From the NCBI GenBank assembly GCA_019694685.1, contig JAIBBM010000015.1:1-64000 (forward strand): a DNA stretch of 64,000 nucleotides, in the 5' to 3' direction. The notes under the pieces were generated by a model. The model had not been told where the DNA came from and did not search any database. It saw only the letters and a program-made list of their open reading frames with translations. Origin of the DNA: Leptospirales bacterium (GTDB lineage: Bacteria; Spirochaetota; Leptospiria; Leptospirales; Leptonemataceae). Positions within the stretch are counted from its first letter, which is position 1; each line of letters starts with the position of its first letter. The position numbers and the translations under genes are program-made. This document shows, in pieces, positions 46,954-53,378 of this stretch.

Positions 46954-47035
46954 GATACCGTGTCACTGTGTCAGAAATGATCGTTTTTCATATTTTTTTT
47001 GAACGAGAACGTAGTTTTTTTTGTCCATTCTTCGT

Positions 47036-47836
47036 ATGTGGAGAGATCCAAGACACTATCAACTGGGCGCGCTTTATTCTTTGTTTCTATATGGTGCCTT
47101 TGCGCTGGGGTTTGATGTTAAGCCGTTGCATGTGGTTTTGACGATCGCAACTGCGGTGACTACTCAGGTGCTTTTCAGTTGGATTTTTCGAGTCCCTGTG
47201 GAGCTGCGAAGTGCTCTGATTACATCTTGTTCTCTCTGTCTTTTGCTTCGCTCCAGTGTCTGGTGGGTTCCAGTGTTTGCCGCCTTTGTGGCGATGGGAA
47301 GCAAGTTCGTGCTCCGGTGGAACGGAAAACACATCTTCAATCCAGCGAATGGTGCAATCATTCTGTGCTTGCTCGTGTTTGACAACGCGTGGGTTTCACC
47401 GGGCCAATGGGGCAACACAGCTTTCTTCGGATTCCTGTTTGCATGTCTTGGCGGGCTCGTTGTCATGCGTGCGAAACGTGCGGACGTAAGTCTTGCATTC
47501 CTATTCTTTTACTCCGCGATGATTTTCGCAAGGTCTCTGTATCTGGGTGAGCCAATGACGATTCCGATCCACAGACTGGAAAGCGGCGCCCTTCTTTTGT
47601 TTACATTCTTTATGATTTCAGATCCGAAAACAACGCCCAATTCTCGCGTTGCCAGAATTCTATACGCGTTTCTGGTTGCCGCGGGAGCATACTACGTGAC
47701 TTTTAAGATGTTTCGCACGAACGGTCTTCTCTGGTCGCTTGTGATCGTTTCGCTTCTGGTGCCATTCATGGATTTGCTATTTCGCGGTGAGATTTACCAA
47801 TGGAGAAAGAAAGATGAAGTTCAGTTCAGCAGTTAA
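47036..47836 (+). CDS. RnfD/NqrB-like membrane protein
   Basis: Protein of 266 residues with nine or so hydrophobic segments. Visible signature: GKHIFNPANGAIILCLL and LESGALLLFTFFMISDPKTTP, which match the RnfD/NqrB family. The threonine that carries covalent FMN in RnfD is replaced here (SGALLL), so flavin attachment is unlikely. ATG at 47036 used; a TTG at 47021 is possible. It overlaps the DUF2330 gene by 23 bases, and the two are likely coupled. Confidence 0.8.
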   Translation: MWRDPRHYQLGALYSLFLYGAFALGFDVKPLHVVLTIATAVTTQVLFSWIFRVPVELRSALITSCSLCLLLRSSVWWVPVFAAFVAMGSKFVLRWNGKHIFNPANGAIILCLLVFDNAWVSPGQWGNTAFFGFLFACLGGLVVMRAKRADVSLAFLFFYSAMIFARSLYLGEPMTIPIHRLESGALLLFTFFMISDPKTTPNSRVARILYAFLVAAGAYYVTFKMFRTNGLLWSLVIVSLLVPFMDLLFRGEIYQWRKKDEVQFSS

Positions 47837-49124
47837 GTATTCCACCGTCGCCCTTGCGATTGTTACTTCTGTGGAAGTTGTGTACGCGTTTTGCGGCTTC
47901 TATGTGGCGAAAGCGGACACGAAGTTGTTCAATCAGGCGTCGAGCGTGGTGCTGGTTCGCGACGGAGATAGAACGGTTCTTACTATGTCCAATGACTTTC
48001 AGGGAGACCCGAAGGAATTTGCACTTGTGGTTCCAGTTCCTACGTTTCTTGAGAGAGGCCAGATCAATGTAGGCGATCCCGCCGTCATCGCTCATGTAGA
48101 TGCGTTCACTTCCCCAAGGCTGGTGGAGTATTTTGATTCTGATCCATGCATGGTTGAATATGAACGCGATGACGTGCGAAGAGCAGAAGTGCCGTCCGCA
48201 AATACGCAAGGACCTGGAAGACACAACGACCTGGGTGTAAAGGTCGAGGCTAAGTATACCGTGGGAGAATACGATATTCTGATTCTATCCGCGAAGGAAA
48301 GCGGCGGTCTCGAAACCTGGCTGAAGCAGAACGGATATAAAATTCCACCCGGCGCCTCAGAGGTCCTGGGAAGCTACATCAAGCAAAATATGAGGTTCTT
48401 TGTTGCGAAGGTGAATTTGAAGGAGAAAGCAAAGACCGGATTTACATACCTTCGTCCGCTTCAGATTGCATTCGAATCGCCTAAATTCATGCTCCCGATC
48501 CGACTGGGCACCGTGAATGCAAATGGGCCACAGGAATTGTTCGTTTTCGCAATCACAAAGCAGGGGCGCATTGAAACCACGAACTATCGCACAGTCCGAC
48601 TTCCTACTGATATCAATGTGCCGGAATATGTAAAAAGCGAATTTGCCGATTTCTATAAGTCCATGTTTGCTGAAATGGTTCGCAAAGAAGACATGCGCGC
48701 GGTTTTTCTTGAGCATGCGTGGGATATGAGCTGGTGCGATCCATGTGCCGCCGATCCTCTCTCTCCCGCAGAGCTGAAAAAACTTGGAGTATTCTGGGTG
48801 AAGGAATCCGAGGGTGGGGCTGTTCCTGCCTTTGTGACTCGGCTGCATGTCCGCTACGACCGTGCGCATTTTCCGGAGGACCTGGTATTCCAACAAACGG
48901 GTGATAAGGCGAACTTTCAAGCTCGCTATATTATGCAGCATCCGTTTAAAGGTGCCACCTCTTGCCCGGCAGGAGAGCGTTACAAATCACAGCTCGTCGT
49001 TCGTCAGAATCAGGAAGCTGAGAACCTTGCAAAGCTCACCGGTTGGGATATAGAAGCGATTCGCAAGAAGATCGGTATCATGAAGGCGACAGAGAGAAAA
49101 TGGTGGCAGAATCTCTGGGATTAA
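47814..49124 (+). CDS. Exported DUF2330 protein
   Basis: Protein of 436 residues from the ATG at 47814 with GGAGAAAGA upstream. Signal peptide ends near VYAFCGF. The DUF2330 start is clear: FCGFYVAKADTKLFNQAS and VLVRDGDRTVLTMSNDFQGDPKEFALVVPVP. The family is widespread and nearly always encoded beside an RnfD-like gene; the biochemical role is unknown. Six cysteines in the mature part (e.g. WCDPCA) suggest disulfides. Confidence 0.88.
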   Translation: MKFSSAVKYSTVALAIVTSVEVVYAFCGFYVAKADTKLFNQASSVVLVRDGDRTVLTMSNDFQGDPKEFALVVPVPTFLERGQINVGDPAVIAHVDAFTSPRLVEYFDSDPCMVEYERDDVRRAEVPSANTQGPGRHNDLGVKVEAKYTVGEYDILILSAKESGGLETWLKQNGYKIPPGASEVLGSYIKQNMRFFVAKVNLKEKAKTGFTYLRPLQIAFESPKFMLPIRLGTVNANGPQELFVFAITKQGRIETTNYRTVRLPTDINVPEYVKSEFADFYKSMFAEMVRKEDMRAVFLEHAWDMSWCDPCAADPLSPAELKKLGVFWVKESEGGAVPAFVTRLHVRYDRAHFPEDLVFQQTGDKANFQARYIMQHPFKGATSCPAGERYKSQLVVRQNQEAENLAKLTGWDIEAIRKKIGIMKATERKWWQNLWD

Positions 49125-49136
49125 TCATCCCGGAGC

Positions 49137-50486
49137 ATGCGCACTTTATACATTGAATGCGTCTCCGGAATTGCCGGAGACATGTTCGCGTCTGCGTTTC
49201 TGGACGCTGGATTGATTTCGCGACAAGAAGTGGAGGATCTTCCTCGAAGGATCGGTTGGCCAGATGTAAAGATAGAGGTCAGTTCAGTGGTGCGCGCCAC
49301 CATGAAAGCTACATCGATCGATGTATCGGCGCAGGGCGAATCGTGGAAGCAATCGCTCAAAGAATCCGCGAGCGCCCCCATACCCTCGGGCAAGATAGAA
49401 ATTCGCGGCAAAGCTCACGAGGCAACACATTCGCTTTCAGCCCGCCCGGTTCATTCAGATGGGGGGGCGGGTTCTCCACTGCACAATCATATGCACGGAG
49501 ATTCGCATGGACATACTCATGGCCATTCGCACGGGGGCACTCACGCAAATGCAGACGGATGGCATACGCAATATGCGGATCTGGATCGATTCCTGGCCAC
49601 GCGCGACCTACCGATAGGCGTCATTGAGAAGGCTCGTAGCATCTTTTATAACCTTGGGCGGGCGGAAGCGGAAGCTCATGGGATGGCAATCGAATACGTA
49701 GCATTCCACGAAGTGGGCGCTTACGACAGCATCATCGATGTGCTTCTGGCAGCCATTTGTATAGACCGTATTGGAGTGGATCAAGTGGAATGTTCGTCCA
49801 TACCGGTAGGACGCGGGATGATTCAAATCGCTCATGGTTTGCAGCCTGTGCCTCCACCGGCCAGTGCGAATCTTCTTCGCGGTATGCCAGTGGCTCCCGT
49901 TCCGATTGCCATTCAGAAAGAAAATGTGGAGCTTGCGACGCCTACGGGGCTTGCGATTTTGAAAACCCTGGAACCCCGCTTTCGCTGGGATTGGCCGAGC
50001 GGAATTCTGGAGAACGCGGGAATGGGTGCCGGGCATATGGACTTTCCTGGTTTTCCAAACGTCGTTCGCATTGGTGTGTTTTCTAGTGGTGTTGCGGCCG
50101 ATTCTTCCAACTATGCGAAGGAGACAGTATGCCAGCTAACGTTTAATGTGGACGATCAAACGGGAGAGGAAACCGGACGATTCATTGATCGCGCAATGAA
50201 GGAAGGTGCGCTGGACATTCAGGTGATACCTGCGACCGGAAAGAAGGGCAGACCTTCTATGGTGATTCAATTGCTTGCACGTGAAGAACAAAAGGACAGG
50301 ATGATCGATCTTGTCCTTCGCAGCACACGTTCCTTTGGTGTTAGGGTGGAAAAGGTTGAGCGTTATAGATTGGAGACCCGGTTTGAAGAGCGGGACGTGC
50401 AGGGTAGTAAAGTAAAGTATAGAATCGGAACGAACCTGGCTGGAGCATTCATAAAAGAAAAGCCGGAGTTTGACGACCTGCCGTAG
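49137..50486 (+). CDS. larC: LarC nickel-insertion protein
   Basis: Protein of 449 residues that inserts nickel into the pincer cofactor of lactate racemase. Family features: CVSGIAGDMFASAFLDAG, His-rich segment 116-143 (HNHMHGDSHGHTHGHSH), FHEVGAYDSIIDVL and ELATPTGLAILKTL. It is one continuous gene, not split by a frameshift as in some lactobacilli. No larA, larB or larE in this window. Confidence 0.93.
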   Translation: MRTLYIECVSGIAGDMFASAFLDAGLISRQEVEDLPRRIGWPDVKIEVSSVVRATMKATSIDVSAQGESWKQSLKESASAPIPSGKIEIRGKAHEATHSLSARPVHSDGGAGSPLHNHMHGDSHGHTHGHSHGGTHANADGWHTQYADLDRFLATRDLPIGVIEKARSIFYNLGRAEAEAHGMAIEYVAFHEVGAYDSIIDVLLAAICIDRIGVDQVECSSIPVGRGMIQIAHGLQPVPPPASANLLRGMPVAPVPIAIQKENVELATPTGLAILKTLEPRFRWDWPSGILENAGMGAGHMDFPGFPNVVRIGVFSSGVAADSSNYAKETVCQLTFNVDDQTGEETGRFIDRAMKEGALDIQVIPATGKKGRPSMVIQLLAREEQKDRMIDLVLRSTRSFGVRVEKVERYRLETRFEERDVQGSKVKYRIGTNLAGAFIKEKPEFDDLP

Positions 50487-50494
50487 TTCAGCAT

Positions 50495-51376
50495 ATGCGG
50501 GAGTACTTCTATAGAATTGATTCGCGTGGGCGAGTGATTCATGACGGCACGGAGATTTCGGATGAAGGATTTCTCAATTTCTTCTTCGAGAGACTGCGCG
50601 ACAACGATACGGGACTCCACAGTGATTTTTCATTTGTCTCTCCTTGCGGCAATGAAATGAATTTCATAAAGCCAGATCTTTTTCCGATCGTTTTTTCAAA
50701 ACGATCCGGAGATCGTCTCTTCTATGCGCCCGGTCTTTCTGTTGCACTCGATCTAAATAGGATGCGATATTCTGAGAAGCTGATCCTTCATCCTGCGCCG
50801 ATTGGCACCTTTGGGTTGTTAGGCGCTGATCTTGCGCTCGAATTTGGCCGGGATATCGAACCATGGGGTCCGTTTCTGTCCTATCGCGTTGGACGGTCGC
50901 CTCCTGCCATGGCAGATTCAATGTTTGTGATCGAGCCTCTGGAGCGATCGGCAGGGACCGAACACCTCGAGATCATTCGGTCAGATCCTTCGGTTCAATG
51001 CTTTGGATGCGGCGGTGCAAACGCAGCTGGATTGGCGTTGCCTTTCATCTTTGATCCGCGAGCCAACACTGCGCGAAGCTGGTTTAAGCCTCCAGCCTGG
51101 ATGGCCGGGCATCCGTCCTGGATGCACGGCGGTTTCATAAGTCTACTGCTGGATGAGGTTTGCGCGAAGGTGCTTCGCGGATTGCAGAGAAAGGGAGCGA
51201 CGGTCGAGCTCAATGTTGCGTTCCGTAAACCCGTGCCGCTGGGGCATGAGATTGAACTGCTGGCCAAACTCGAAACCATAGAAGGTAGAAGGATTCGGGT
51301 GCAGGGTTCCATCCTCGCCGAAGGGCATGTGCGAGCAGAAGCTCAGGCTCTTTTCGTGGAGTTGCTCAGCGCCTGA
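50495..51376 (+). CDS. Fusion of UPF0598 (DUF4505) domain and hotdog thioesterase
   Basis: Protein of 293 residues. Residues 1 to about 140 match UPF0598, the family of human C8orf82: REYFYRIDSRGRV, SFVSPCGNEMNFIKPDLFPIVF and KLILHPAPIGTFGLLGADLALEF. Residues about 160-293 form a hotdog-fold thioesterase: CFGCGGANAAGLAL, then the HGG motif in WMHGGFISLLLDEV. The N-terminal domain has no known function; fusion to a thioesterase suggests acyl-CoA or acyl-thioester chemistry. Nine bases follow the larC stop. Confidence 0.85.
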   Translation: MREYFYRIDSRGRVIHDGTEISDEGFLNFFFERLRDNDTGLHSDFSFVSPCGNEMNFIKPDLFPIVFSKRSGDRLFYAPGLSVALDLNRMRYSEKLILHPAPIGTFGLLGADLALEFGRDIEPWGPFLSYRVGRSPPAMADSMFVIEPLERSAGTEHLEIIRSDPSVQCFGCGGANAAGLALPFIFDPRANTARSWFKPPAWMAGHPSWMHGGFISLLLDEVCAKVLRGLQRKGATVELNVAFRKPVPLGHEIELLAKLETIEGRRIRVQGSILAEGHVRAEAQALFVELLSA

Positions 51377-52005: not shown

Positions 52006-52067
52006 TCAAGCGTTTTTGGCGGAAAGTGTTTGACTGCAGATCGTTCCGCACCGACGAACAGAAAGTC

Positions 52068-53378
52068 ATGAGACTTATGGGACGCATTTATCAGGTGATT
52101 TTCTGCCTTGTAGGCCTGGCCAATTTCGCGCTGGTTTTGTTTGATGCTACCTATTTGTGGAAACTTCCCTATACTCGTTTGACTGCTCGCGACCTGTACC
52201 TGGCTCACGCCCCCGATCTTGTTCGACGTTATGATCCGGTGAAAGGAATCGATGCGCATCGTTTTACAACCGCTTACCTGGCCCAGGCGGATCACGCCTT
52301 CGAGTTGTCCCAGGCCGGAAATTACAAAGATGCAGAAAAGGTGTACGCCGACCTGGCGGCCATGAGCCGCGAAGTGATTGATCAGCGTCCCGGATTCAGT
52401 CACTTCAGCATTGCGGAAAAAGATGGTACTTTGCAAGTAATCAAGAACGCGATGCGCGGTCACTTTGGCATTGAGTCTGCCAAGGACTCATTTGCGCGCT
52501 ACTGGTCCAGGGAGAATCTGGCACTCGATCGGATTGCAGCCGAGAAAGGGTTCTTCGACAGAGAAATTCGACCCTTGATGGCCCAGAACTATTTCAGATG
52601 GATCGACGAAGACGGTGAGATGCGCGATTACTTCTATAGGATCGATCTCTGGTTTGTGGCATTCTTCCTGGTCGATTTTCTGGCGCGCTGGGTGATTGCG
52701 ATTCGCCTGGGTCGTCATCGCAAATGGTACATGTTCCCGGTTCGCCATGGCGTTGAGATTTTCAATCTGGTTCCTCCCCATCATGCAGTGTGGATGAGGC
52801 TCCTTCGTGCCATTCCATTGTATTTGAGAATGAAAAAAGCCGGGATGATACCGGGCGAAGGCATCATGCCGGAGATCCTACATGACAACGCCGCCTTGAT
52901 CGCAGAGGAGATTTCCGGGCTCGTTCTTGTAAATATCCTTGATCAGCTGGCTGTTATGGTTCGAGATGCAAACCCCTCAGGAATCGTCCAGAGCGAGGTT
53001 GCTCAGGTGACGAAAGACCTTCTGGATTCTCAACTTGACCGCATAGCGGACACGGTCGTCCCCGATGTTGAGCCCCAGATTACCGGCCTTGTGATTCATT
53101 CCGTGTATCAGGCTATGGGGCCCTATTTGCGTACGCCTCTTGGCCCTGCGATTCGACTGGGCATGTATGCGGTGGAAGCCGCCATCAAGGACGGTTTGCG
53201 GTCGGCTCTGGTGAGCCAGGATGGTCGCGAGCAAATGAAAGGTATCCTTCGTAAATTCTTGAGCGAGGGGACGACCGAATTGACCGCCTCAGAAAACCTC
53301 GCTGTGATTCAAAACCAGTCTTCCATTCTTCTGGATCGAATCAAGCATGAGGTCCTACGCAGCCTTGACGAAGGGTGA
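52068..53378 (+). CDS. Membrane protein of unknown function
   Basis: Protein of 436 residues from ATG 52068. One hydrophobic segment at about 6-26 and another at about 192-212 (LWFVAFFLVDFLARWVIAI) followed by the basic WYMFPVRHGVEIFNLVPP and RLLRAIPLYLRMKKAG, a layout reminiscent of cyanobacterial ion-channel-like membrane proteins. The C-terminal 180 residues are helical and soluble. No catalytic motif. Divergent from tmk with 62 bases between starts. Confidence 0.7.
   Translation: MRLMGRIYQVIFCLVGLANFALVLFDATYLWKLPYTRLTARDLYLAHAPDLVRRYDPVKGIDAHRFTTAYLAQADHAFELSQAGNYKDAEKVYADLAAMSREVIDQRPGFSHFSIAEKDGTLQVIKNAMRGHFGIESAKDSFARYWSRENLALDRIAAEKGFFDREIRPLMAQNYFRWIDEDGEMRDYFYRIDLWFVAFFLVDFLARWVIAIRLGRHRKWYMFPVRHGVEIFNLVPPHHAVWMRLLRAIPLYLRMKKAGMIPGEGIMPEILHDNAALIAEEISGLVLVNILDQLAVMVRDANPSGIVQSEVAQVTKDLLDSQLDRIADTVVPDVEPQITGLVIHSVYQAMGPYLRTPLGPAIRLGMYAVEAAIKDGLRSALVSQDGREQMKGILRKFLSEGTTELTASENLAVIQNQSSILLDRIKHEVLRSLDEG

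Follow-up and report, generated by a model that had tools for sequence, protein, structure and literature searches.

A DUF4505 (UPF0598) domain fused to a hotdog thioesterase domain is conserved in a genus of Leptospirales and in Kapaibacteria/Ignavibacteria

The window, i.e. the whole stretch of 64,000 nucleotides analyzed here, encodes a protein in which a DUF4505 domain (DUF4505 presumably being the Pfam name of UPF0598) is joined to a hotdog thioesterase domain (Table 1). Both parts are known; their combination, new when judged apart from the architecture lists of domain databases, is conserved. The earlier note on this DNA had named a fusion unique to one assembly, or the absence of a UPF0598 profile match, as grounds for refuting its reading; the profile match is present, and 33 distinct fused proteins with both domains intact occur in two phyla. 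Taken as a whole, we tentatively read the protein as a possible soluble two-domain acyl-CoA thioesterase that carries a putative N-terminal binding module for CoA-type ligands.

Two domains in one protein

A protein of these two domains had been proposed at 50495-51376 from the letters and the open reading frames, and a Pfam search with hmmscan confirms it, both domains scoring above their curated cut-offs. DUF4505 (PF14956) matches residues 1-118 (E 7.7e-17) with 62.1 bits against a cut-off of 27.3, i.e. 35 bits in excess, and 4HBT (PF03061) matches residues 210-278 (E 4.7e-7) with 30.5 bits against 20.6. In a search of NCBIfam with the fusion protein no model was hit at its cut-off. The earlier note had assigned the N-terminal 140 residues to UPF0598; the Pfam match covers 118 residues rather than 140, although the modelled fold runs to about residue 148. 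The structure prediction that the earlier note had called for yielded a single AlphaFold model with both domains confidently folded (mean pLDDT 92.8 and pTM 0.84 for the full protein; pLDDT about 95 across residues 1-130), and the homologous standalone DUF4505 domain of L033 reaches a pLDDT of 95.4.

Table 1. Features of the fusion gene with their positions in the window and, in brackets, residues of the encoded protein
Feature	Position	Strand	Basis
DUF4505-hotdog fusion gene	50495..51376	+	ATG start, 293 aa; ORF list, Pfam, fused orthologs in sister species
DUF4505 domain	50495..50893 (residues 1-133)	+	PF14956; AlphaFold; DUF1285-like fold (homologous standalone protein)
SPCGNEMN motif, most conserved DUF4505 stretch	50639..50662 (residues 49-56)	+	S, C, G, E and N invariant (21-sequence alignment)
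Linker with strand at residues 142-148	50894..50989 (residues 134-165)	+	pLDDT dip to 67 (131-140); length varies in alignment
Hotdog thioesterase domain	50990..51361 (residues 166-289)	+	PF03061; Foldseek to 2ov9 and THEM4
CFGCG motif	50999..51013 (residues 169-173)	+	Both Cys invariant in 17 aligned fused proteins
HGG...D active-site segment, H211-D220	51125..51154	+	H211, L217 and D220 invariant, G212/G213 nearly so (alignment)
T236, Thr on strand after central helix	51200..51202	+	Nearly invariant; alignment with THEM4

Standalone and fused DUF4505 domains have in common an R-x-Y-[FY]-Y start and the S-x-C-G-x-E-x-N motif, as seen in alignments; the latter is altered or lost in L068, L069, L078, L084 and L086. 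Three of these are fused proteins that combine an intact hotdog domain with a DUF4505 motif that is either altered (SPSGYEIN in L078) or lost (L084 and L086). Mean pairwise identity amounts to 53% in the DUF4505 half compared with 46% in the hotdog half; the DUF4505 domain, being at least as conserved as its partner, is therefore under constraint.

In the hotdog half, the CFGCG and HGG features are present where the earlier note had placed them. HGG occupies residues 211-213 (51125-51133); D220 (51152-51154), nine residues after the histidine, completes the HGG-x6-D pattern as its acidic residue. The HGG...D segment aligns with HGGAIATMID of THEM4, and T236 aligns with the threonine in the TANLNINYKRP segment of the same protein. 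The human acyl-CoA thioesterases THEM4 and THEM5 reside in mitochondria, and the THEM4 structure 4gah has been solved with an undecan-2-one-CoA inhibitor. Foldseek comparison of the hotdog half ranks RHA08564 (2ov9, E 1.7e-10) first, followed by THEM4 (E 3.0e-10), THEM5 and then PaaI-like proteins; 539 matches have an E value up to 0.001, and those listed are hotdog proteins. The designation "PaaI-type" holds at the level of the superfamily, with RHA08564 and THEM4/THEM5 rather than PaaI itself as closest solved relatives; for the PaaI model TIGR00369 of NCBIfam the score is 14.3 bits against a cut-off of 36.6.

Distribution, origin and gene neighborhoods

Each of the three species in the window's genus (Leptospirales) has the fusion, with the gene for thymidylate kinase (tmk) as neighbor every time, and the orthologs in both other species are likewise fused and exhibit 49-52% identity with the protein from the window. 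The window genome, a 4.3-Mb draft, contains a single DUF4505 gene. Together with 30 proteins from Kapaibacteria/Ignavibacteria, these three make up the 33 distinct intact fusions, all with HGG...D kept; occurrence in three species and in a second phylum excludes an assembly artefact. Fused proteins are intact down to about 36% identity with the window protein, with catalytic residues retained.

Within the sampled phylum, DUF4505 is absent from 378 of 393 genomes. Twelve further genomes of the window's family contain the domain without a hotdog partner, as a standalone protein of about 150-190 aa in 11 cases and fused to a GNAT acetyltransferase in one. In the latter (L031:7847-8833, genome G006), a single open reading frame encodes both DUF4505 (Pfam E 3e-18) and GNAT (E 5e-16); GNAT enzymes typically use acetyl-CoA. 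A profile scan of genome contigs revealed DUF4505 outside the phylum as well, namely in Kapaibacteria, in Ignavibacteria and in MAGs related to them. When the search was conducted class-wide, 28 of 294 genomes contained the domain. Both domains are encoded with intact HGG...D in 26 of them; one of the remaining two proteins is truncated by a contig end and the other, L057, has a degenerate hotdog. This last gene (also L037:5013-5867, from Kapaibacterium SKYG35) encodes an intact DUF4505 domain, and its hotdog half has kept its length, lost HGG and most sequence similarity and gives no Pfam thioesterase match. One MAG labelled Bradyrhizobiaceae (L055, JAGFIZ010000017.1) features the fusion in a Kapaibacteria neighborhood and groups with that class; its label looks wrong. 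A contig search with the full fusion protein as query gave no matches, in contrast to the DUF4505 domain profile, which did find homologs; plasmid records contained no DUF4505 match at E 1e-5. Nearly all genomes of the relatives hold several hotdog proteins, and counting these is uninformative.

A tree of the hotdog domains, calculated for the 33 distinct intact fusions and nine standalone Leptospirales hotdogs, splits every fused hotdog from the standalone ones (support 90/91). Judged by these sequences, a single fusion event is favored, and the recurrence of the fusion is to be understood as conservation across two phyla, not as repeated invention. A first tree had made inter-phylum transfer seem likely; under a better model, a single clade of all Leptospirales is rejected neither for the DUF4505 half (p-AU 0.47) nor for the hotdog half (p-AU 0.43). 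These values are compatible both with vertical inheritance and loss of the hotdog in relatives and with transfer from the Kapaibacteria side to the window's genus.

In the window, the fusion gene overlaps tmk tail to tail (51343-51376), and larC (49137-50486) ends 8 bp upstream, an arrangement that looks co-transcribed. We rejected larC as a functional clue, since both congeneric species lack it at this locus. The same holds true for the entire region 47021-50486, which comprises genes for an RnfD-like protein, a DUF2330 protein and LarC and is missing here in the two sister species. On the other side, a 450-aa predicted protein (52026-53378, + strand) that matches neither Pfam nor NCBIfam is conserved throughout the three species. 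The main Kapaibacteria clade has argS and rsfS directly upstream of the fusion, with a metallophosphatase gene as a further neighbor; dtd resides beside the fusion in five basal Kapaibacteria loci, and a nicotinate phosphoribosyltransferase gene in L037. The standalone DUF4505 genes of the window's family are accompanied by genes for rhodanese, lipoprotein-like and glycosyltransferase-like proteins, the last two having been named by eye.

Possible functions of the DUF4505 domain

Foldseek comparison of the homologous standalone DUF4505 model gave two matches with probability 1.00, both to DUF1285 (2ra9 at E 5.9e-7, 2re3 at E 7.1e-6); the next match has an E value of 0.25, leaving DUF1285 as the only confident one. 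The relation surfaced by structure comparison only: a search of PDB sequences with the DUF4505 profile gave no match, DUF1285 (PF06938) is not among the hmmscan matches of the fusion protein, and a profile-profile comparison of the two families is collinear and, by itself, weak (probability 11%, E 0.003). The SPCGxEMN motif does not occur in the aligned DUF1285 sequences. We know of no ligand for any member of the DUF1285/UPF0598 superfamily. The fold match independently supports a 2010 review (PMC2954204), which stated on the basis of personal communications that UPF0598 and DUF1285 belong, along with a third family, to one superfamily. The authors of the DUF1285 crystal structures proposed that a nucleotide-type ligand occupies a conserved cleft between the domains, and they observed that most DUF1285 genes have Nudix genes beside them (PMC2954208).

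In the alphaproteobacteria examined, these Nudix neighbors appear to be CoA pyrophosphatases. Of 26 plasmid records with DUF1285, 17 have a CoA pyrophosphatase gene directly beside it (Rhizobiaceae, Methylobacterium, Tistrella, Sphingomonas and Azospirillum); the exceptions are Paracoccus (5) and Acinetobacter (4). On plasmids from Sphingomonas and Rhizobium (L089 and L090), the two cases with annotation, the genes for DUF1285, CoA pyrophosphatase and CCA tRNA nucleotidyltransferase follow each other in this order with 4-bp overlaps, and the linkage of DUF1285 and Nudix genes may stem from one ancestral alphaproteobacterial operon including the tRNA nucleotidyltransferase. In Acinetobacter, DUF1285 is transcribed divergently from the gene for ETF-ubiquinone oxidoreductase, the system that accepts electrons when acyl-CoA is dehydrogenated. 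A search of the relatives with PF06938 returned DUF1285-like proteins below the threshold and one barely above the cut-off. L099-L106 from the window's order make up a separate DUF1285-like family of about 160-200 aa that mostly scores below the Pfam cut-off, with a weak DUF2946 match in two of them; their neighbors are a FliM-like gene, a conserved uncharacterized protein or an acyl-CoA dehydrogenase (G021).

The thioesterase and GNAT fusion partners and the CoA pyrophosphatase neighbor all use CoA, and on these grounds DUF4505 is proposed as a putative binder of CoA or acyl-CoA, each of the three associations being weak when taken singly. We infer acyl-CoA hydrolysis from established hotdog chemistry and CoA binding by the N-terminal domain purely from guilt by association; the hotdog superfamily also includes proteins other than acyl-CoA thioesterases. 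The C-terminal domain, of the THEM4/PaaI class, would hydrolyze acyl-CoA as a hotdog dimer or tetramer, with the H211-G212-G213 helix binding the thioester carbonyl, T236 opposite to it, and D220 serving as nucleophile or general base that attacks the thioester or activates water. The DUF4505 domain would accommodate CoA, acyl-CoA or a CoA-derived nucleotide in the cleft of its DUF1285 fold and, by sensing the ligand or holding the CoA moiety, might determine which substrates the attached thioesterase takes or how active it is, or might feed it. The suggestion in the earlier note that UPF0598 may act on acyl-thioesters or guide a thioesterase is indirectly supported by the GNAT fusion in one genome, the DUF1285 fold and the adjacency of DUF1285 genes to CoA pyrophosphatase, and is still putative. 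In favor of the reading as a whole we count the Pfam matches of both domains, the conserved catalytic motif, the acyl-CoA thioesterases among the best solved hotdog relatives, the confident match to DUF1285 only, the published ligand prediction (PMC2954208), the CoA pyrophosphatase and Acinetobacter neighbors, the GNAT fusion and the constraint on the DUF4505 half; against it we count that neither the standalone DUF4505 genes of the window's family nor the Kapaibacteria fusions have CoA genes beside them, that the GNAT fusion stems from one genome, that the Nudix linkage may go back to one operon, that the profile-profile score is weak and that either domain can decay without the other (L037, L086).

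DUF4505 could instead be a passive oligomerization or docking module that places the thioesterase near a partner complex and binds no small molecule. Accessory domains are frequent on hotdog thioesterases, DUF4505 itself is devoid of a conserved CoA gene neighborhood, and the two domains have decayed independently, as the loss of the hotdog in L037 and of the DUF4505 motif in L086 indicates that their coupling is not absolute. Still, we consider a mere docking role rather unlikely, given that the DUF4505 half is more conserved than the enzyme half, that the domain persists on its own, as a protein of about 160 aa, in 11 relatives and that in one genome it is fused to another class of CoA-using enzyme (GNAT).

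It is improbable, in our estimation, that DUF4505 is itself an enzyme or provides a metal or thiol site on S-x-C-G-x-E-x-N, in which case the fusion would be a two-step enzyme and DUF4505 would act on a substrate or product of the thioesterase, e.g. CoA or the freed acid. Consecutive steps are often joined by fusions, and Cys51, Glu54 and Asn56 belong to the few residues that are invariant from standalone proteins of Leptospirales to fused ones of Kapaibacteria. However, L078 has another residue in place of the cysteine and L084 and L086 have lost the motif, and yet these proteins persist; furthermore, the authors of the DUF1285 study saw no strictly conserved residues in the cleft and argued against catalysis (PMC2954208).

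A role in tRNA or translation quality control, with an aminoacyl thioester or aminoacyl-tRNA being hydrolyzed instead of a lipid acyl-CoA, appears very unlikely. It would fit argS and rsfS upstream of the fusion in the main Kapaibacteria clade, dtd in the five basal loci and the CCA tRNA nucleotidyltransferase gene following those for DUF1285 and CoA pyrophosphatase, but such neighborhoods are not conserved beyond those clades, the window's genus having tmk, plus larC in the window species only, and the closest hotdog structures are acyl-CoA thioesterases. Least probable of all is an uninformative fusion, i.e. two unrelated genes joined once by chance and then inherited, because the single origin favored by the trees (90/91, no repeated invention) has to be set against 33 intact proteins in two phyla that keep their catalytic residues to about 36% identity and against a second, different DUF4505 fusion that likewise involves a CoA-using enzyme class, GNAT.

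C8orf82 and comparison with known systems

UPF0598 has been described as a metazoan family (PMC2954204), and its human member C8orf82 appears in the mitochondrial matrix list of a mitochondrial proteome study (PMC7066081). Literature on C8orf82, UPF0598, DUF4505, CG30010 and F59C6.12 yielded no function. With the bacterial THEM4-like fusion serving as a Rosetta stone, a pairing of C8orf82 with a thioesterase is predicted. By analogy, the DUF1285/UPF0598 fold might be a general CoA or acyl-CoA binder, and C8orf82 might bind such ligands and work with a matrix thioesterase, e.g. THEM4 or THEM5, a generalization that we regard as doubtful. C8orf82 belongs to the "dark" proteome of human mitochondria, and the clues from the fusion and from DUF1285 make its function testable; the open question is narrowed to a cheap test, namely binding of CoA or acyl-CoA by the DUF4505 domain.

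Among known systems, THEM4 and THEM5 (4ae8, 4gah, 4ae7) are the closest characterized hotdog structures and align in HGG-x6-D and the Thr strand, but identity is 20-23%, and at the N-terminus they have something other than DUF4505. RHA08564 from Rhodococcus (2ov9) is the top structural match for the hotdog half and the Shewanella hotdog protein 2prx has a CxGCG motif; unlike the fusion protein, both are without a DUF4505 domain. DUF1285 (PF06938/PF21028; 2ra9, 2re3) shares its fold with DUF4505 at a Foldseek probability of 1.00 and differs from the DUF4505 domain of the fusion in the missing Pfam match, the weak profile-profile score and the absent motif. C8orf82/UPF0598 (PF14956), finally, is a metazoan family in the literature, whereas here the domain is bacterial and fused to a hotdog thioesterase.
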